DNA of 35,354 nucleotides, taken from IMG/VR virus record IMGVR_UViG_3300005663_000131, positions 1 through 35,354 of that record. One strand, given 5' to 3'. A program made the position numbers and the translations under genes. This document shows, one piece after another, positions 9,861 to 35,354 of the stretch. The DNA comes from a virus. The notes under the pieces were generated by a model that ran no database searches, was not told the origin of the DNA, and saw only the letters and a list, made by a program, of their open reading frames with translations. Every line of letters begins with the position of its first letter. The first letter of the stretch is position 1.

Positions 9861-10940
9861 ATGCCCCTTAAGATTCCGATTTGGGTCCACACTGTCGAGA
9901 CGGCCTACCCGGGGAGTTCGACCATCCCGCCCGACGACACCAAGAACCCGTTCTCGGCCGTCTATCAGAAGACGAACGACGGGCTTCGCTTCGAGGGCCG
10001 GTGGGACGGCCACCCGCGAGGTATCGACGATATCGCCGACGTCGTCCGTACGGACCGCGAGATCTACGGCGCACAGGGGATCGGCTGGATCCCGTGGGGC
10101 GTCGTCCACGGGCGGTGGGAGGGGTCCCACTCACCCGCCTACGCGATGCAGGAGGGCCGGCTCGCCGGGAAGATCGCAGTCGCGGCCGCCGGCGGAGGTG
10201 TCGAGAGTGCGGTCTACATCATCGATCTCGAGCCTCACTACTTCGCGCCGTTCCCGGCGTTCTGGCGCGAGGACCTCGGTGCCGGCGTCGACGACGTCGC
10301 AGCCTTCCTCGAGGGCTTCGTCCAGGCGGGAGGCGAGGAGCTCTGGATCGCGATCGACCCGCGCCCGCAACACCTCGACCGGGTCAGCTTCCGAGCGTGG
10401 TCGCGAGCGATGGAGGGACTCACCCCGGCGGTGACGCGGATTCTCCCGATGACCTACTTCACGGACTTCGTTGCGCCGCGCGTTGCGATGAACCTCGACG
10501 CCGAGGTCGTCCTCTCGAACGCGGTCGAGACCTTCGGTCGCTTCGGAGTGCCGCCGGCGAAGATCTTCCCCATCCTGCCGGCACCCGCGACGCCCTCGGT
10601 GATGGAGTTCGCGATCGGGACGAGTCACCGCCTCGGCTGTGGCGGCGTCTCCGTGTACCAGCGGGGCAACCTCTCGTTCGACACGGCGAACGCGATCGCC
10701 GCGCTCCGGGATCCGTGGGGCGCCGAGGAGGTCGAGGAACCGGTGCCGGCGTTCGACGCGGCGAATGTCGCGGGCGCTCTTCAGGAACTCTCGTTGACGA
10801 AGAGCTACCTGCGGGTATTGACTGGCGATCTTCGGTCTCTTGCCGAGTCGATCGACAACGAGCTAGACGACCTCAAGGGCGTCCACAAGGTCCTGTTCGC
10901 AGAACTCCTCGATGCGCGTAATAAGGAGGAGCCGAACTAG
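9861..10940 (+). CDS. TIM-barrel glycoside-hydrolase-like protein (possible lysin or tail-tip hydrolase)
   Basis: A 359-residue protein from ATG 9861 with a strong AGGAGAGGAGG site. The strand pattern fits a TIM barrel. IWVHTVETAY opens the chain, IGWIPWGVVHG lies near 75, a strand ending in acidic residues (YIIDLEPHY) near 116-124, LWIAIDPRPQH near 154, ILPMTYFTDF near 190, KIFPILPAP near 235 and GCGGVSVYQRG near 255. Asp and Glu at strand ends (IDLEP, IDPRP) are candidate catalytic acids, as in GH25-like or related barrels, but I cannot assign a family. The last ~75 residues form a helical tail (LQELSLTKSYLRVL...LDDLKGVHKVLFAELL) that may be an oligomerisation stalk. It could be an endolysin or a tail-associated depolymerase. 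No signal peptide is seen. Confidence 0.6.
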   Translation: MPLKIPIWVHTVETAYPGSSTIPPDDTKNPFSAVYQKTNDGLRFEGRWDGHPRGIDDIADVVRTDREIYGAQGIGWIPWGVVHGRWEGSHSPAYAMQEGRLAGKIAVAAAGGGVESAVYIIDLEPHYFAPFPAFWREDLGAGVDDVAAFLEGFVQAGGEELWIAIDPRPQHLDRVSFRAWSRAMEGLTPAVTRILPMTYFTDFVAPRVAMNLDAEVVLSNAVETFGRFGVPPAKIFPILPAPATPSVMEFAIGTSHRLGCGGVSVYQRGNLSFDTANAIAALRDPWGAEEVEEPVPAFDAANVAGALQELSLTKSYLRVLTGDLRSLAESIDNELDDLKGVHKVLFAELLDARNKEEPN

Positions 10941-15967: not shown

Positions 15968-16239
15968 CCTATACGCCGTCTTGCGCGACCTTCGTCGGCG
16001 CTCGAGCGAAGGCCAGCGGGCGTCTCTGCGGTCACGCGTTTGAGGCTCACGAGCGCCACACGGATGGCGCGTTCGTCTACGAGATCTGTCGGCCGTGCCG
16101 TGACTCGGGCCTCCGTTGGACGAAGCAACTCGAGGACGCGACTGGCGCGGACCACTGGTACGCTGACGGCTATGGTGGTCGTCGCACTCCGGACCCGGAT
16201 CCGCGACCGCCGGTGGTGAGCGAGGTGGCGAGTGGCTGA
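15964..16239 (+). CDS. hypothetical zinc-binding protein
   Basis: A 91-residue protein, ATG 15964 overlapping the previous stop as ATGA. The cysteines and histidines are spaced as C-ATFVG...RLCGHAFEAHE...YEICRPC, a plausible two-part zinc site. The C-terminal ~25 residues are Pro/Asp/Arg-rich and disordered-looking. No family is recognised. It overlaps the methyltransferase gene by 8 bases, suggesting coupled translation. Confidence 0.65.
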   Translation: MTYTPSCATFVGARAKASGRLCGHAFEAHERHTDGAFVYEICRPCRDSGLRWTKQLEDATGADHWYADGYGGRRTPDPDPRPPVVSEVASG

Positions 16240-17303
16240 GAAGGGTCGGCGCGTCCGCGTCACGTACGACGACCTCGACGAGCTCGCCGCGGCCGCCCGC
16301 GAGGGCAACCCGAAGGCGCACAACCTGGCGGTGATCACCGAGAGCGTCGACGCCGTCGGGTACGTCGAACCCGTGGTGATGAACGATGCCGACGGGAAGA
16401 TGCTCGCCGGCCACGGCCGCATCGAGACGCTGACTCGGCTGCGTGAGATGGGCGCGTCGGCGCCCGAGGGGGTGAGGTCGACGCGCGACGGACGGTGGCT
16501 CGTGCCGACGATCCACGGCGTCGAGCTCTCGGAGCCCGACGCCGTGCCCGACGTGGTGGACGAGCCGTATGTTCTGCCGGGCCAGCTCTACGCCCTCGGG
16601 CCCCATCGCATCCTGTGCGGGAGCGCGACCGATGCGGAGGACGTGGCGTGTCTACTCGGCGGCGCTCAGCCGAACCTCATGGTGACAGACCCGCCCTACG
16701 GCGTGAACTACGATCCGGAGTGGCGCAACGACGCGGCCGCGAAGGGGCTCATCGACTATGGCGCAACTCGAACGGGGAACGTGCCTGGTGACGATCGGGC
16801 CGACTGGGGAGAGGCGTACGCGTTGGCCCCCGGTGACGTCGCTTACATCTGGCATGCGGGCGTCATGCCCAATGTGAGCCGGGATGGCCTGCTCGACTGC
16901 GGCTACGAAGTGCGTAACCAGATCGTCTGGGCAAAGCCGCGCTTCGCGATCTCACGCGGTCACTACAACGGGCAGCACGGAGGTCTGCTGGTACGCCGTG
17001 CGTAAGGGGAAGACAGCGAGTTGGATCGGCAGCAACAGTGAGACCACGCTCTGGGAGGTGACGCTCGACAGCAACGTCGATGGCGGTCATTCGACCCAGA
17101 AGCCGGTCGAGTGTATGGAGCGGCCGCTCCGCAACCACGAGGGGGACGTCTACGACCCGTTCGTCGGCTCCGGCACGACGATCATCGCGGCGGAACGCGT
17201 GGGCCGGGCGTGTTACGCGATGGACATCGAACCGCGCTACGTCCAGGTGACGATCGAGCGGTGGGAGAAGTTCACCGGCGAGAAAGCGGAGTTGATCGCT
17301 TGA
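16232..17303 (+). pseudogene. ParB-like/DNA methyltransferase fusion, interrupted by one extra base
   Basis: GTG 16232 opens a frame with a ParB/Srx-like N-terminal domain (residues about 1-80: NLAVITESVDAVGYVEPVVM, LAGHGRIETLTRLREMG). A class beta DNA methyltransferase follows, with motif IV VTDPPYG near 150-157 and GDVAYIWHAG. The frame stops at TAA 17003-17005. The well-known continuation of this family (H-E-V/P-C-W-Y-A-V-R-K-G) is found in the +1 frame from about 16981, and that frame carries STQKPVE and motif I DPFVGSGTT and ends at TGA 17301-17303. One surplus G at 16979-16980 explains the break. Restored, the product would have about 356 residues. It would methylate phage DNA (adenine N6 or cytosine N4), probably against host restriction. 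Either sequence error or real inactivation is possible; no slippery site is obvious. Confidence 0.8.
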
Positions 17304-27721: not shown

Positions 27722-27933
27722 TGGGACCACGGGTCGAGGACCTACGTGTAGAGTTCGCCGCGCCGGAGATAGCCGAGCTGATGGGCGCGGAGCTGATCGA
27801 ACGCGTCCTCGACTCGTGCCTCCTGGGCCGGCACGCGCAGTGCCCCGCCGTCCTCGGTACGGGCGGCCTCGACCACCACAAGGTCATCGTCGTCTGCGGA
27901 GACGCGTGCCACCGACCGGAGAGGCTTATCTGA
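27721..27933 (+). CDS. hypothetical protein
   Basis: A 70-residue protein. ATG 27721 is chosen because GGAGGAGG precedes it at a good distance; ATG 27658 is in frame and would add 21 residues (LAVQDAPALARTIRPEEARL) that look well coded but lack a ribosome site. The chain is helical at first (APEIAELMGAELIERVLDSC). It then has GRHAQCPAVLG and VVCGDACHRPERL, with three cysteines and histidines that may hold metal. No family is recognised. Confidence 0.6.
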   Translation: MGPRVEDLRVEFAAPEIAELMGAELIERVLDSCLLGRHAQCPAVLGTGGLDHHKVIVVCGDACHRPERLI

Positions 27934-28271
27934 TGGTGACCTACGGCGATTGGGTTAGCGTCGCCCGAAGCGAGCGGTACGCGATTCGTGACGCCGTCGT
28001 CGGCCCCTACACGGTCTCCGAGACGCTGCTCTGGCACGGCCAGTCGACTCGAGGGCACGAGCACGAGCGCGACGAGGTGTACTACTTCATCAGCGGCTAC
28101 GGCCGCATGATCGTGGGCGAGAAGTCGATCGATACCCCGTGGGGCTCGGTCGTCTACGTCGGGCCGAACGAGTATCATCGCGTCGAGAATATCGGCGGAG
28201 TTCAACCCCTCCGCTTCCTCTCGTTCTTCGTCGGCGAGCCCGGGCGACCGGAGGTAACGAGCGATGACTAA
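27933..28271 (+). CDS. cupin-domain protein
   Basis: A 112-residue protein, ATG 27933 overlapping the previous TGA by one base. It shows both cupin motifs: RGHEHERDEVYYFISGYGRM (H42-x-H44-x3-E48 and the closing glycine) and VVYVGPNEYHRVEN (P-x3-H82-x3-N). These residues make a single metal site in a small double-stranded beta-helix, as in sugar-phosphate isomerase-like cupins. It is short and single-domain. A cupin between terminase and portal is unusual. It could be a metabolic gene or a structural variant of the fold. It overlaps the portal gene by 8 bases, so it is made together with head proteins. Confidence 0.85.
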   Translation: MVTYGDWVSVARSERYAIRDAVVGPYTVSETLLWHGQSTRGHEHERDEVYYFISGYGRMIVGEKSIDTPWGSVVYVGPNEYHRVENIGGVQPLRFLSFFVGEPGRPEVTSDD

Positions 28272-30132
28272 CGGCGGCGCCCCCGCGCTCACGCTCGACG
28301 ACCTGACCCCCACCGATACGAAGGCGCTCGCCGACCCGGGCGTGATCGACGCGATCCGCCGGTCCGTCCGCCGCTCGGTGATCCAACCGGAGATCTCGAC
28401 GACCGTCCCCGGTGCGGTCGGGGGCGATCTCTCGTCGCTCTTCTTCACCGCAGCCCAGGCCGACGGCATCACCCGGTGGGGCGTCAACCCGACGATTCGC
28501 GACCGTCAGCTCCGCCTCTTCTACCCGACCGAGTCGGTCCTCAACTCCGCCTTCTCCTCGGTAATCGCTCGCAACGCGGCGTTCGACTGGGCGCTCAACG
28601 GGCCCGACCTCCAGGTCGACGCCACCTACGATCTCCTGCACAGCGCGAACCGCGGCGCCGGCTGGACCGACTTCGTCACGAAGCTCTCGACCGACCTCTA
28701 CACGCAGGACAAGGGCGCGTTCGTCGAGATGATCCGGACGGCCGACAGCGCCGCGGCGCCGACGATCGGTATCCAGACGCTCGACGCCGCTCGCTGCTTC
28801 CATACCGGCGACCCCGAGACGCCCGTCGTCTACGTCGACCGCAAGGGGAAGTGGCACCAGATGCGGTGGTTCCAGGTCTTCACGATCGCCGAGATGCCGG
28901 CGCCGCACGAGCAGCTCTACGGGCTCCAGTACTCGGCGCTCACCCGCGTGATGCGCGCCGCGCAGATCTTCCGCAACATCCAGATCTACCTCGACGAGAA
29001 GACGGGCGGCCGGCACACGCGGGCGATCCAGATCGTCGGCGGCGTCGAGGCCGACCGGATCGAGGCCGCGCTTCGGCTCATCAACGGACGCGACGACGCC
29101 TCTGGCCTCGAGCGGTTCGGGCAGATCCCGATCGTAACGTCGCTCAACCCCACGATCGCCCCCTCGGTCGTGACGGTCGAACTCGCCTCTCTGCCGGACA
29201 ACTTCAAGACGGAGGAGGCGTTCAAGCAGTACCTCACGACGATGGCGCTCTCGCTGCTCGTCGACTTCCAGGAGCTCGCGCCGCTCCCGGGCGGCAACCT
29301 CGGGACGTCGGCGCAGTCGGAGATCCTCCACCTCAAGTCGCGCGGCAAGGGCCCGGCGCTCTGGATGAAGCTGATCGAGCAGAAGCTCAACTTCCACGGC
29401 GTGATCCCCCGCGACGTCACGTTCGAGTTCGACGAGACCGACGTCGAGGCGGACGAGGCGATCGCCGAGGTGCGGAAGACGCAGGCCGAGACGCTCAAGG
29501 TCCTCACCGAGGCCGGCATCGTCGACGTCGAGGGCGCGCGGCAGATCGCGGTCGACGACACGCTCATCCCTCAAGAGCTCTTCGACGCGATGGAGCAGCG
29601 CGACCTCACGGCAGAGCCGCGTCGCTCGACCGACAAGCGCCGCCCGGAGAACGAGGGGCGCGACGCGCCGAAGGAGGGGGACGAGACGCTCGAGGAGGGC
29701 GACGGCACGAAGTCGCTCGTCGACCGGCTGCTCGCGGGGACGAAGGAGGAGGGCACGACGACGGTCCGCGACGTCCTGATCTCCCGCCTCCACCGGGCGT
29801 TTACCACGGCGGCCGACGACATGCGCGGGCTCGACGTGATGAACACCGAGGAACGGATCGCCGTCTCGGGTCTCGTCGGGAAGGTTCTCGACAGCGCCGA
29901 GGACATCCTCTCCGAGGGCGCGCGGGAGGTGATGGAGCGCAACCTCGAGCGCGACGACCTCCGCGTCGTGATCGGCGCGAAGGAGGAGGACCCCGACCGC
30001 GCCGGCCCGGAGGACGAGCGGCTCGACCTCGAGGCCGAGGTCGCCGGCGTCGTGAAGGTTGAGGCGCTCGACCGGATGCGCCGCAGCCTGCGGGGCCGGC
30101 TCGAGGACGAGTTGCGCGAAGGGAGCGACTGA
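28264..30132 (+). CDS. portal protein
   Basis: A 622-residue protein, ATG 28264 with GGAGGT 8 bases upstream. Recognisable portal features are RLFYPTESVLNSAFSSVIAR near 80-100, a wing and strand part with QTLDAARCFHTGDPE, YGLQYSALTRVMRAAQIFRN near 220-240, then SLPDNFKTEEAFKQYLTTMA and LPGGNLGTSAQSEILHLKSR near 342-360. The C-terminal ~180 residues are highly charged (RRPENEGRDAPKEGDETLEE), longer than usual. They end in helices that may extend into the head or carry an assembly function. Twelve copies would form the vertex through which DNA enters. It overlaps the next gene by one base. Confidence 0.88.
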   Translation: MTNGGAPALTLDDLTPTDTKALADPGVIDAIRRSVRRSVIQPEISTTVPGAVGGDLSSLFFTAAQADGITRWGVNPTIRDRQLRLFYPTESVLNSAFSSVIARNAAFDWALNGPDLQVDATYDLLHSANRGAGWTDFVTKLSTDLYTQDKGAFVEMIRTADSAAAPTIGIQTLDAARCFHTGDPETPVVYVDRKGKWHQMRWFQVFTIAEMPAPHEQLYGLQYSALTRVMRAAQIFRNIQIYLDEKTGGRHTRAIQIVGGVEADRIEAALRLINGRDDASGLERFGQIPIVTSLNPTIAPSVVTVELASLPDNFKTEEAFKQYLTTMALSLLVDFQELAPLPGGNLGTSAQSEILHLKSRGKGPALWMKLIEQKLNFHGVIPRDVTFEFDETDVEADEAIAEVRKTQAETLKVLTEAGIVDVEGARQIAVDDTLIPQELFDAMEQRDLTAEPRRSTDKRRPENEGRDAPKEGDETLEEGDGTKSLVDRLLAGTKEEGTTTVRDVLISRLHRAFTTAADDMRGLDVMNTEERIAVSGLVGKVLDSAEDILSEGAREVMERNLERDDLRVVIGAKEEDPDRAGPEDERLDLEAEVAGVVKVEALDRMRRSLRGRLEDELREGSD

Positions 30133-30526: not shown

Positions 30527-30891
30527 TGGACGCCGAGCTACGTGTAAAGGAACTCGAGCACCACTTCGGGAGGATCGCGATCGAGGTCGGGAAGATTCAG
30601 GGCGACCTCATGCTCTATCGAGGGGAACACCCCGACGAGAGCTACGAGAAGCTCGAGGACGATCCGCTCTTCATGATCGGCGTCGACGCGGCTCGGATTA
30701 TGACCGCCGCCGTCGCCATACGAAACGATCGGTGCGAACATCCAGACTCAGAGACGTTCGAGTGCGTCCACGAGTGGAGCGAAGGCGCGTTACTCCCGAT
30801 CCGGAGCTGCGATCTCTGTTGGCTCGAGGAGCCGAGTACGCTCGACCCCGACTTACCGGAGGGCAAGCGCCTACATCGTGCCCCCGCCTAA
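30526..30891 (+). CDS. hypothetical protein with C-terminal Cys/His cluster
   Basis: A 121-residue protein, ATG 30526 overlapping the previous stop by one base. Residues 1-65 are helical (LRVKELEHHFGRIAIEVGKI, DPLFMIGVDAARIMTAAVAI). Residues about 70-100 have RCEHPDSETFECVHEW and SCDLCW, a probable zinc site. No family is recognised. Its 3' end overlaps the Mu gpF-like gene by 14 bases. Confidence 0.65.
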   Translation: MDAELRVKELEHHFGRIAIEVGKIQGDLMLYRGEHPDESYEKLEDDPLFMIGVDAARIMTAAVAIRNDRCEHPDSETFECVHEWSEGALLPIRSCDLCWLEEPSTLDPDLPEGKRLHRAPA

Positions 30892-31492
30892 GCTCGTCAC
30901 CCCGGTCGTCGACGACGCCGGGTTCTGGGTCCGGCTCGGTGAGGAGATTAAGCCGAAGATCCGGCCGCTCTTCCGCGACCTCTTCATCGAGGGCGCGATC
31001 GCCGGCGGCGACGCCGACCCCGTCGTCGCGACGAAGGACGTCGCGCTCGACCTCGACGCGATCAACGATATCGCCGACGACCTCATCGCCAACTACACCG
31101 ACGAGTGGTGGGCGCAGATCGAGCAGACGACGCGCGAGCGGCTCCGCGCCGCGATCGCCGAGGCCCGCGAGCTCGGGCTCGGCGCGGAGTTCGTCGCTCG
31201 AGAGATCGCCCCGCTGTTCGGCGAGACGCGCGCCGTCCTGATCGCCGTGTCGGAGGTGACGAACCTCTTCGGCCAGGGCGCGCAGGCGACGTACCGCGCG
31301 GCTGGCTTCCCGACGTGGATTTGGCGCACGGCGAACGACCCGGCGGTCGATCCGATCTGCGCGGATCTGGCGACCGAGTCGGAGGCGTCGCCCTTCCCGA
31401 TGAGCCGTGTCTTCGTCCGCGCCCACCCGCGCTGTCGCTGCTGGCCCGTCCCGGCCGGCCGCGCGGTGACGATGCCGTCGGCGGTGGCGTAA
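30878..31492 (+). CDS. head morphogenesis protein, Mu gpF-like
   Basis: A 204-residue protein, GTG 30878. The first ~120 residues are helical (GEEIKPKIRPLFRDLFIEGA, ADDLIANYTDEWWAQIEQTT). The conserved end is VSEVTNLFGQGAQATYRAAG, WIWRTANDPAVDPICADL near 148-165 and VRAHPRCRCWPVPA near 183-196. The latter (C...HPRCRC) is the signature of the phage Mu F-like family, minor head proteins needed for head assembly and found beside portals. Its start overlaps the previous gene, and a long non-coding block follows its stop. Confidence 0.88.
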   Translation: MPPPKLVTPVVDDAGFWVRLGEEIKPKIRPLFRDLFIEGAIAGGDADPVVATKDVALDLDAINDIADDLIANYTDEWWAQIEQTTRERLRAAIAEARELGLGAEFVAREIAPLFGETRAVLIAVSEVTNLFGQGAQATYRAAGFPTWIWRTANDPAVDPICADLATESEASPFPMSRVFVRAHPRCRCWPVPAGRAVTMPSAVA

Positions 31493-32503: not shown

Positions 32504-32659
32504 ATGCCGTTCTCCGGTCCGGGCGACCCGAGCCTCCCGACTCACGTCAAACGGCTGTCGGCGAAGCGTCGACGCCAGTGGGTCGCGGTGTGGAACTCGA
32601 CCTTCGACCGGGAGGGCGACGAGGGGCGAGCGTTCGCTGCGGCGAACTCCGCGGTCTAG
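32504..32659 (+). CDS. small ChaB-like phage protein
   Basis: A 51-residue protein, ATG 32504 to TAG 32657-32659. PSLPTHVKRLSAKRRRQWVA, then VWNSTFDREGDEGRAFAAAN, matches the small module often found next to or fused to phage prohead proteases: proline, helix, R-R-Q-W-V-x-V-x-N-S, helix with A-x-A-N. It resembles ChaB-type proteins. The role is unknown. A GGGGGTGAG lies 14 bases upstream, rather far for a ribosome site. The gap to the protease gene is 9 bases. Confidence 0.75.
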   Translation: MPFSGPGDPSLPTHVKRLSAKRRRQWVAVWNSTFDREGDEGRAFAAANSAV

Positions 32660-32668
32660 GAGGTCGAA

Positions 32669-34657
32669 GTGCCCGAGGACCAGCAGCCCGTCCAGACCGT
32701 CCCCTCGCTCGTCGACGGCCCCCGAGCCGCGGAGGATCCGCAACAGTCTGCGGATCCGACCGAGGCCGAGCTCCGCGCCGCGCTTGGTGGCGGCGACGGC
32801 ACGACGCTCGCAGATCTCGGAGTCGCCGTCGGCGGCTCGTCGCAGCCGGCCCCGGGCCCCGACGCCGTCGTATTCCGGAAGCCGACCACCGCAGACGTAC
32901 TCAGGATAGTCGCCGCCCTCGATCCCGCCGAGACGAAGGCCGTCGGCGCCAAGCACGGCGACGGCGACTTCATGCCCTTCCCCGTCACGAGCGTCGGGCC
33001 GTTCGGCGGCGCCGAGTCGTTCGCCGACTACGACGCGTGGAAGCAGGCGGTGGAGGTACAGGGCGAGGTCGACACGCTGACCTTCGCCTTCGATGGCCTC
33101 ATCTCGAACATCCGTAACGACCCGGAGCTCACGCTCGCGCAGAAGGCGACCAATATCGCCCTCGTTGCCGGTGAGCTCGGCCGGCGCGTCGAGGCCCAGA
33201 ACTCTTCGCACCTCGACGAGGACGAGAAGGCGCTCGACGAGCCCTCATCTGCGACGTTCTGGTTCCAGGCCGAAAACTTCTCGTTCACCTACGTCGATGA
33301 CCAGAAGGACTTCGCCCAGAAGGTCGCGACGAAGCGCGACCGCGGCGTCGAACTCAAGGCGTCGGACTTCGCCGACGTGCCCGATGCGACTAAGCCCGGC
33401 GGCTGGAAGCTGCCGCTCGTCACCGGTCGCTCGGGCAACTTCGACCTCGCGCGGATCGGCGACGCGATCACGGCGCTACAGCCCACCGGTTTCCGCGGCA
33501 ACCCCGTCCAACTCGGATCGCCGAAGGGTCGCGTGAAGTCGCGTATCCGTTCGGCGATCTCCCGAGCGTCCGGGCCGGCCGACCGCAAGAAGGCGCTGCT
33601 CGAACGCCTCGGGAAGGCGAAGGACGCGGGCGACCCCGGATCGCTCGTCGTCTTCAAGGACCGCGATGGGCGTCAGCGGTGGCTCACGATTCACTCGAAC
33701 GAATATGTCGACCGCGAGGGCGAGGCGTTCCACAAGGAGGCGCACGACGAGTTCGTCCGGTGGGTCGACACCGACAAGGCCGAGCGGATGCCCGAGCTCC
33801 GTGTCTTCCACGTCCCCGGCTCCGGCCTCGGCCGCGCGGACATCGTCGACCACACATCCGAGGGATTTATGATCGCCTCCGGCACGTTCTACCCGCAGAT
33901 GGAATACGTCGCGAAGGGGCTCGCCGAGCGCGACGACCTGGGCGTATCCCACGGATTCTGGTTCGACCCTGCCGCTTTTCACGGCGGCGTGTATCATCGA
34001 TATCGCTCGTTCGAGGTCTCGGTCCTGCCGAGGGATCGGGCGGCGAACGAGGCGACCGGCTTCATCGCCGGCAAGGAGGTTCCCATGCTGAACGAGGACA
34101 AGAAGGCCGAGCTCGTCGCCGTCGGTGGCGCGGCGTGGGCCGACGCCGTCGAGTCGGGACTCTCCGAGCTCGCGAAGGAGGCGGACGAGAAGGGCCTCCA
34201 GTACAAGGAGATCGAGACGCGCGTTCTCGCCGCGCTTACGCCGGCGAAGGAGAAGGCCGAGGGCGACCCTGCAGGAGGCCCCACGCCCGACCCGACGACC
34301 GTGAGGGTCGGGCTCGACGCGGTGATCGCGCCGATCGCGCAGGGCATGGCGGCGATCGCCGACACGGTGAAGACGATCGGTGCCGACGTGAAGGCGCAGG
34401 GCGAGCAGATCGCGGCCCTCAAGGAGGGCGACGACGAGAAGATCGCCGACGCCTTCCGGCCGCGCTTCGACCCGACGAAGGGGGCGCCCGCGTCGGAGGA
34501 CCCGAACAACGAACCGTCGGCCGAGGTGAAGGCGACGGTCGAGAAGTCGCTCGAGGGCGACGTCCCGGATTACCTCAAGCCCTACGTGAATAACGACGGG
34601 TCGCTCGCCGGCCTCAACGCCAACGTCACCCCGGTACCGGAGGGCATGCCCGCCTAG
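32669..34657 (+). CDS. prohead protease with long N-terminal region and C-terminal scaffold domain
   Basis: A 662-residue protein, GTG 32669 behind TAGGAGG. Residues 1-70 are Pro/Gly/Ala-rich. Residues about 70-330 form an extra region with ELTLAQKATNIALVAGELGR, DARFWFQAENF-like strands and basic RVKSRIRSAISRAS. The protease lies at about 330-465: HSNEYVDREGEAFHKEAHDE, LRVFHVPG, DLGVSHGFWF with His428, and RSFEVSVLPRDRAANEAT with Ser451. His and Ser in these settings are typical of HK97/herpes-assemblin-like prohead proteases. The rest (about 470-662) is helical, acidic and Lys-rich, like a scaffold. The protease trims scaffold and capsid proteins after head assembly. An internal start at 34085 may give scaffold alone. 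Confidence 0.8.
   Translation: MPEDQQPVQTVPSLVDGPRAAEDPQQSADPTEAELRAALGGGDGTTLADLGVAVGGSSQPAPGPDAVVFRKPTTADVLRIVAALDPAETKAVGAKHGDGDFMPFPVTSVGPFGGAESFADYDAWKQAVEVQGEVDTLTFAFDGLISNIRNDPELTLAQKATNIALVAGELGRRVEAQNSSHLDEDEKALDEPSSATFWFQAENFSFTYVDDQKDFAQKVATKRDRGVELKASDFADVPDATKPGGWKLPLVTGRSGNFDLARIGDAITALQPTGFRGNPVQLGSPKGRVKSRIRSAISRASGPADRKKALLERLGKAKDAGDPGSLVVFKDRDGRQRWLTIHSNEYVDREGEAFHKEAHDEFVRWVDTDKAERMPELRVFHVPGSGLGRADIVDHTSEGFMIASGTFYPQMEYVAKGLAERDDLGVSHGFWFDPAAFHGGVYHRYRSFEVSVLPRDRAANEATGFIAGKEVPMLNEDKKAELVAVGGAAWADAVESGLSELAKEADEKGLQYKEIETRVLAALTPAKEKAEGDPAGGPTPDPTTVRVGLDAVIAPIAQGMAAIADTVKTIGADVKAQGEQIAALKEGDDEKIADAFRPRFDPTKGAPASEDPNNEPSAEVKATVEKSLEGDVPDYLKPYVNNDGSLAGLNANVTPVPEGMPA
34085..34657 (+). 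CDS. internal in-frame start: probable separate scaffold protein
   Basis: Inside the protease gene, AAGGAGG (34073-34079) lies five bases before ATG 34085, in the same frame. This is the best ribosome site in the whole region. Translation from it would give 190 residues (LNEDKKAELVAVGGAAWADA...): helical, acidic, with a Pro/Thr-rich linker (GDPAGGPTPDPTT) and a final NVTPVPEGMPA. This is the size and make-up of a capsid scaffold. Phage lambda makes scaffold Nu3 in just this way from the 3' part of protease gene C. The site cannot be needed for the protease reading itself. Confidence 0.65.
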   Translation: MLNEDKKAELVAVGGAAWADAVESGLSELAKEADEKGLQYKEIETRVLAALTPAKEKAEGDPAGGPTPDPTTVRVGLDAVIAPIAQGMAAIADTVKTIGADVKAQGEQIAALKEGDDEKIADAFRPRFDPTKGAPASEDPNNEPSAEVKATVEKSLEGDVPDYLKPYVNNDGSLAGLNANVTPVPEGMPA

Positions 34658-34724: not shown

Positions 34725-35354
34725 ATGCCCCCGACGAACGCAGGAGTTCTCGACCCCCGGGCCGTCGCCGCCGCGATGGGTCAACTGACCGCAGCCCTCA
34801 CGGGCGAGAAGGCCGTCGGCCCCTCCGGGTGGCCCACCGCCTTCCGCCACGACTCACCGGGCGCTCCCGGCGCCGCCGGCTACGCCCACGGGCCCGGCGG
34901 CCTGCTCTCCTTCCCGGGTCTCGACCCGCAGATCTTCCAGACGATCGTCGGGGTTCGCCCCGGCGTCCTCGGCGAGATTCCGACGCGGCCGTCGGTCTTC
35001 ACCGACCCGGTCTACGAGATCCTCACCGGCGTTCAGACGAACACGGGCTCGAACAAGGAGAACGTCTGCGACGACGCGCCCGTCGCCGGCCTCACGAAGG
35101 GCGGCAAGGTCTCGATCCCCTTCGGTCGCTACGAGTTCTCGACGCGCGAGCTCGAGCTCAACCGCATGGGCCAGCGCAACGACCGCGCCGACCCGGTCGA
35201 TCTCCGGATCGTCGGCAACGCGATCCCGAGCGGCTCGATCTTGGGCGTCGATCAGACGATGCCGCAGAACGTCCTGACCAACGAGATGGAGAAGGCGTTC
35301 TTCGAGCGCAACGTCTTCGCTCACCGCACCCTGGCGCAGCAGGTCTGGGTCGGC
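34725..35354 (+). CDS. major capsid protein (partial, 3' end outside window)
   Basis: Open from ATG 34725 (GAAGGAG upstream) to the end of the window, 210 residues seen. GLDPQIFQTIVGVRPGVLGE, RPSVFTDPVYEILTGVQTNT, VAGLTKGGKVSIPFGRYEFS, TRELELNRMGQRNDRADPVD and LRIVGNAIPSG match the N-terminal part of HK97-fold major capsid proteins, which I have seen with very similar wording in several phages. The first ~60 residues (AAAMGQLTAALTGEK...GYAHGPGGLLS) may be cleaved by the protease. An extra AGGAGAGGG (34688-34696) lies 29 bases upstream and does not serve as ribosome site. The gene follows the scaffold by 67 bases and is probably the most strongly expressed. Confidence 0.87.
   Translation, partial: MPPTNAGVLDPRAVAAAMGQLTAALTGEKAVGPSGWPTAFRHDSPGAPGAAGYAHGPGGLLSFPGLDPQIFQTIVGVRPGVLGEIPTRPSVFTDPVYEILTGVQTNTGSNKENVCDDAPVAGLTKGGKVSIPFGRYEFSTRELELNRMGQRNDRADPVDLRIVGNAIPSGSILGVDQTMPQNVLTNEMEKAFFERNVFAHRTLAQQVWVG

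Follow-up and report, generated by a model that had tools for sequence, protein, structure and literature searches.

A conserved internal start site points to a scaffold gene nested within the capsid-maturation protease gene of a diverse phage group

Background

The nesting of a scaffold gene within the gene of a capsid protease is known from phage lambda, phage Mu and the herpesviruses, and has not been documented before for the phage group described here. For lambda, the nesting of Nu3 within C goes back to Shaw and Murialdo 1980 (cited by PMC8508860); the nested architecture of Mu I/Z is also found in PMC4378225, where such a protease/scaffold architecture is proposed for phage PaMx73; the same was proposed for the Mu-like phage KS10, in a paper that states embedding of this kind to occur in many phages (PMC2628397). 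In the herpesviruses, the protease lies N-terminal to the scaffold in pUL26 and the scaffold is also made alone, as pUL26.5, identical to the C-terminus of the fusion, whose scaffold part brings the protease into the procapsid (PMC7920273). The scaffold of HK97 is the N-terminal domain of its capsid protein (PMC12749128).

Here we analyse a stretch of viral DNA of 35,354 nucleotides (IMG/VR record IMGVR_UViG_3300005663_000131; hereafter the window), in which a scaffold gene is very probably nested inside a capsid-maturation protease gene, such that two proteins would be made from one mRNA by way of an internal start. A sequence-only reading of the window had proposed a separate scaffold of this kind, and the start codons, Shine-Dalgarno (SD) sequences and codon choice of the homologues collected here support that proposal. 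A literature search of partial coverage recovered no report of this protease-scaffold family. The finding would supply, for a diverse phage group, a scaffold gene that routine gene prediction would miss, hidden as it is within a larger gene, and the codon-level test that was used could reveal other hidden scaffold starts.

The fused gene and its protease domain

The fused gene encodes, in this order: an N-terminal helical region, a KASDFADVPDA-type domain, a putative capsid-maturation protease, a linker and an acidic helical part. The features of its upstream part are the following (basis between brackets).

32658 to 32663, + strand: Shine-Dalgarno AGGAGG of the full-length gene, with a 5-nt spacer to the GTG at 32669 (duplex energy -10.8)
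32669 to 34657, + strand: fused protease-scaffold gene, 662 aa, GTG start (ORF, homologues, structure model)
33332 to 33562, + strand: domain common to PHROG 19463 and Salmonella phage 9NA gp38, about residues 222-298
33641 to 34033, + strand: putative protease domain, residues about 325-455, T4 gp21/herpes assemblin fold (structure model, fold comparison, HK97 gp4 profile match)
33809 to 33811, + strand: invariant His381, putative catalytic residue (29 aligned homologues)
33947 to 33949, + strand: invariant Ser427 (VSHGF), putative nucleophile (29 aligned homologues; aligns with MSVGF of HK97 gp4)

As modelled, the upstream domain matches a protease of the T4 gp21/HK97 gp4/herpes assemblin fold. 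Folded alone, the protease domain reached a pLDDT of 85, and in a VIA-align comparison this model recovered T4 gp21 with a Z of 11.3 (rmsd 2.7 over 128 residues) and herpes assemblins with a Z of up to 9.6; the best 38 rows were all T4 gp21 or herpesvirus proteases, and the first unrelated fold appeared at Z 4.3. A Foldseek comparison with viral models (BFVD) retrieved prohead proteases at E-values of 1e-8 to 1e-6. The profile match to HK97 gp4 took in two motifs, that of the Ser and E-x-S...AN, and His381 and Ser427 occur in the same order as the catalytic His and Ser of the HK97 gp4/T4 gp21/assemblin-fold proteases. A sequence search of the PDB did not identify the window protease, whereas the fold comparison did. 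The Pfam search gave no match for the window protease and the PHROG search no protease family, where it should be considered that profiles may miss divergent members; one relative weakly matched PHROG 3017 (head maturation protease).

The domain N-terminal to the protease (KASDFADVPDA...FRG) is shared with 9NA gp38, a protein that lacks the protease and yet is encoded directly upstream of the 9NA capsid module. When the full-length sequence was used as query against INPHARED, only 9NA and related Klebsiella phages were matched, at this N-terminal domain. The protease and capsid queries had no match among the 50,697 phage records of INPHARED, and two scans of 84,980 bacterial and archaeal genomes recovered no relative.

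The internal start site in the window

At the junction between the protease domain and the C-terminal part the following features were identified.

34055 to 34084, + strand: junction linker, with the internal SD at its 3' end (model pLDDT < 50 at residues 463-470)
34073 to 34079, + strand: internal Shine-Dalgarno AAGGAGG (duplex energy, recoding test)
34085 to 34087, + strand: internal in-frame start codon ATG, Met473 (NTG in 46/46 homologues)

The sequence-only reading had placed an AAGGAGG with 5-base spacing before an in-frame ATG at the boundary between the protease and a helical acidic C-terminal part, and had considered few mid-gene sites to be as strong. All three points were borne out: the spacer is TTCCC (34080-34084), the ATG is codon 473 of the ORF 32669-34657, and the structure model has a low-confidence linker at residues 463-470, where the beta fold of the protease gives way to the C-terminal helices. 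The anti-SD duplex energy of the site (-12.0 kcal/mol) is the best among all internal in-frame ATGs of the 15 late-region ORFs (runner-up -7.5), is reached by only 3 of the 487 ATGs on both strands of the window, and is slightly stronger than that of the gene's own start. When GTG and TTG codons were included, the site ranked second of 170 within the late-region ORFs. A GTG at 10743 behind AGGAGG, internal to the ORF 9861-10940, scores -12.4, above the putative scaffold start.

Synonymous recoding of the window sequence yields an equal or stronger SD in 85% of draws and the window's own codons thus show no departure from the recoding expectation. Since the Lys-Glu-Val codons give the SD motif by default, selection cannot be demonstrated from the window by itself, and the significance of the site rests on the homologues.

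Conservation of the start site among homologues

Homologues were gathered via similarity to the protease or to the adjacent capsid protein, without use of the SD/ATG motif. After removal of duplicates the sample comprised 46 distinct fused genes (the window phage and 45 relatives; 35 clusters at 60% identity), with a median identity of 33% in the protease region and a GC content of 46-70%. The internal starts were picked by rule, with manual choices at L016, L018, L027, L037 and four further loci. All 46 genes were fused and a split version, with protease and scaffold as separate genes, was not found in this set.

A start codon was present at the junction in every one of the 46 homologues (44 ATG, one TTG and one GTG), a count that, like the others over this set, is not one of independent cases since the loci are related. 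In the two exceptions (TTG in L016, GTG in L050) the Met was lost and a start codon was kept behind AGGAGG. For comparison, each of the 24 neighbouring codons (-12 to +12) was NTG in 0 to 6 of the 46 genes. An SD core of at least 5 nt (AGGAG, GGAGG, AAGGAG or longer) was found at the junction in 40/46, and the remaining 6 loci carried weaker purine-rich motifs of about -5 to -9 kcal/mol. The sequence-only reading had put forward, as a check, whether homologues keep the SD and ATG, and the outcome is in its favour. The mean SD energy over the 46 genes was -9.1 at the junction versus -2.7 for the background. The junction SD was the strongest among the in-frame ATGs in 22 of the 26 genes of the first set and in 14/16 genes of the second, separately collected set; in L019 the competing strong site is the gene's own likely start.

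Codon choice and mRNA structure

The summed SD strength exceeded that obtained by synonymous recoding in both sets (first set: z -5.0, 0/2000 draws; second set: z -3.4). Where the junction residues are Lys-Glu, AAG-GAG is used in 27/30 cases; for the Lys-Glu pairs at other positions of these genes the figure is 65/248 (p 1e-11), and with one gene per 60% cluster the figures were 19/20 versus 60/218 (p 2e-9). The residues that encode the SD vary: Lys-Glu (KE), Gln-Glu (QE), EE, RE, TE, Gly-Gly (GG) and Lys-Gly (KG) were all encountered, and the SD occupies either of two codon frames (AAG GAG G or A GGA GG). The mRNA around the junction start (-25 to +20) is predicted to be less structured than the average of the same gene in 46/46. 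Together, the codon choice, the shifts of SD frame and the exchange of Met for TTG or GTG are signs that selection acts on translational initiation, not on the peptide, and, as judged from these sequences, the junction signals across the homologues are features of a translation start and not of a peptide.

Alternative explanations

We considered four other explanations for the junction site. First, the scaffold might be translated from a shorter transcript of its own, comparable to herpesvirus UL26.5, with the internal SD being used on that mRNA. We consider this very improbable: there is a sigma-70-like match (9/12, with 0.1 expected) at 33846-33873, some 210 nt before the internal start, but this match is weak, stands alone and lies in a GC-rich genome, and a promoter of this kind would add to internal initiation and not remove it.

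Equally improbable, in our estimate, is that the junction peptide represents the protease's own cleavage site and that the scaffold is freed by proteolysis rather than by internal initiation. Scaffolds are indeed cut by prohead proteases, and K-E..M is found repeatedly at the junction, within a predicted flexible linker; however, the residues vary at a constant nucleotide motif, the Met is exchanged only for other start codons, and a peptide signal would leave the synonymous bias and the low mRNA structure unexplained, on which grounds we rejected this explanation. We give still less credence to the idea that the SD-like sequence, lying as it does at a domain boundary, makes the ribosome pause and so aids folding of the protease ahead of synthesis of the tail: for a pause, a start codon just downstream would be superfluous, yet NTG is retained in all homologues, TTG and GTG included, and the idea was rejected as well. 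Least probable of all is chance, by which a common Lys-Glu pair, spelled AAG-GAG at high GC, happens to be followed by Met; the outcome of recoding in the window agrees with this, but for the family it is refuted by the comparative tests (the start codon in all 46 genes, the junction SD being the strongest in most genes, the AAG-GAG excess over the same genes, the SDs encoded by GG and KG, and the TTG and GTG replacements).

The predicted nested product and its proposed role

The nested gene and the neighbouring head genes are the following.

28264 to 30132, + strand: portal protein gene (PHROG 146; context)
30878 to 31492, + strand: Mu F-like head morphogenesis gene (PF04233; context)
34085 to 34657, + strand: nested in-frame gene, putative scaffold, 190 aa, acidic helical (ORF, structure model)
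34725 to 35354, + strand: putative major capsid protein gene, truncated where the record stops (position and conservation)

The nested frame ends at the TAG at 34655-34657 and its product of 190 aa (19.6 kDa) has a pI of 4.35, with helices at 476-507 and 550-600 in a structure model of moderate confidence. Throughout the family the C-terminal product comprises 153-395 aa (median 199 aa) with a median pI of 4.46, and the fused gene was located directly upstream of the capsid gene in 28/28 capsid-anchored loci. From this position, the composition and the analogy with described systems we infer that the nested product is the scaffold.

In the proposed mechanism, ribosomes that start at the GTG at 32669 would make the 662-aa protease-scaffold fusion, and those that start at the ATG at 34085, behind AAGGAGG in weakly structured mRNA, would produce only the C-terminal 190 aa. 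This short protein, presumably made in excess, would serve as the bulk internal scaffold on which the adjacent major capsid protein assembles; the fusion, sharing the scaffold part, would allow a minority of protease to be recruited into the prohead, where the protease would later cut the scaffold away.

Two further features were observed in the window: an ORF with a cupin domain (27816-28271) lies between the genes for the terminase large subunit and the portal, and a DNA-methyltransferase-like sequence (16232-17303) appears to be divided between two overlapping frames (16232-17005 and 16884-17303), which may reflect a frameshift or a sequencing error.

Comparison with known systems

The annotation of Mu I/Z (AF083977) corresponds in layout: as proposed for the window, the scaffold starts in frame within the protease gene, an SD (AGGAG in Mu) precedes that start, both proteins share a stop and the capsid gene comes next. 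As a control, the same SD scoring was applied to Mu, where it put the internal start that is annotated for Z in first place. The Mu I protein has no profile similarity to the window protease. In lambda C/Nu3 (J02459 annotation) the scaffold is likewise nested in frame in the protease gene, between the portal and capsid genes. The parallel with lambda that was drawn in the sequence-only reading thus holds for the nested architecture, but it does not extend to the type of protease, which in the window is predicted to have the T4 gp21/HK97/assemblin fold and lacks profile similarity to lambda C (probability 0.1%). Lambda C is a protease of another class (S49/ClpP-like). With regard to lambda itself, the SD is poor (-2.7) at the older Nu3 start given in GenBank, residue 239 of C, and the strongest internal in-frame ATG of C is at residue 309 (MTKETQSTTV, -9.7), a candidate for the true Nu3 start.

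HK97 gp4 and T4 gp21 have the same protease fold and motif order as the window protease; the HK97 gp4 record, unlike the window gene, holds no nested gene. The protease of herpesvirus UL26/UL26.5 (UL80/UL80.5 in HCMV) is of this fold too, and the search of the PDB detected no sequence similarity between the window protease and a herpesvirus protease. UL26.5 has its own transcript, whereas in our reading the internal Shine-Dalgarno would serve instead. The nesting in an assemblin-fold protease makes the comparison with UL26/UL26.5 a direct one. That an assemblin-fold protease with a nested, separately made scaffold is an old arrangement shared by tailed phages and herpesviruses, kept here by an internal ribosome-binding site and not re-invented, seems unlikely to us. 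Taken together, the shared architecture and the dissimilar proteases suggest a locus that works as C/Nu3 does in lambda and I/Z in Mu, and whose protease is of the HK97/T4/assemblin kind.
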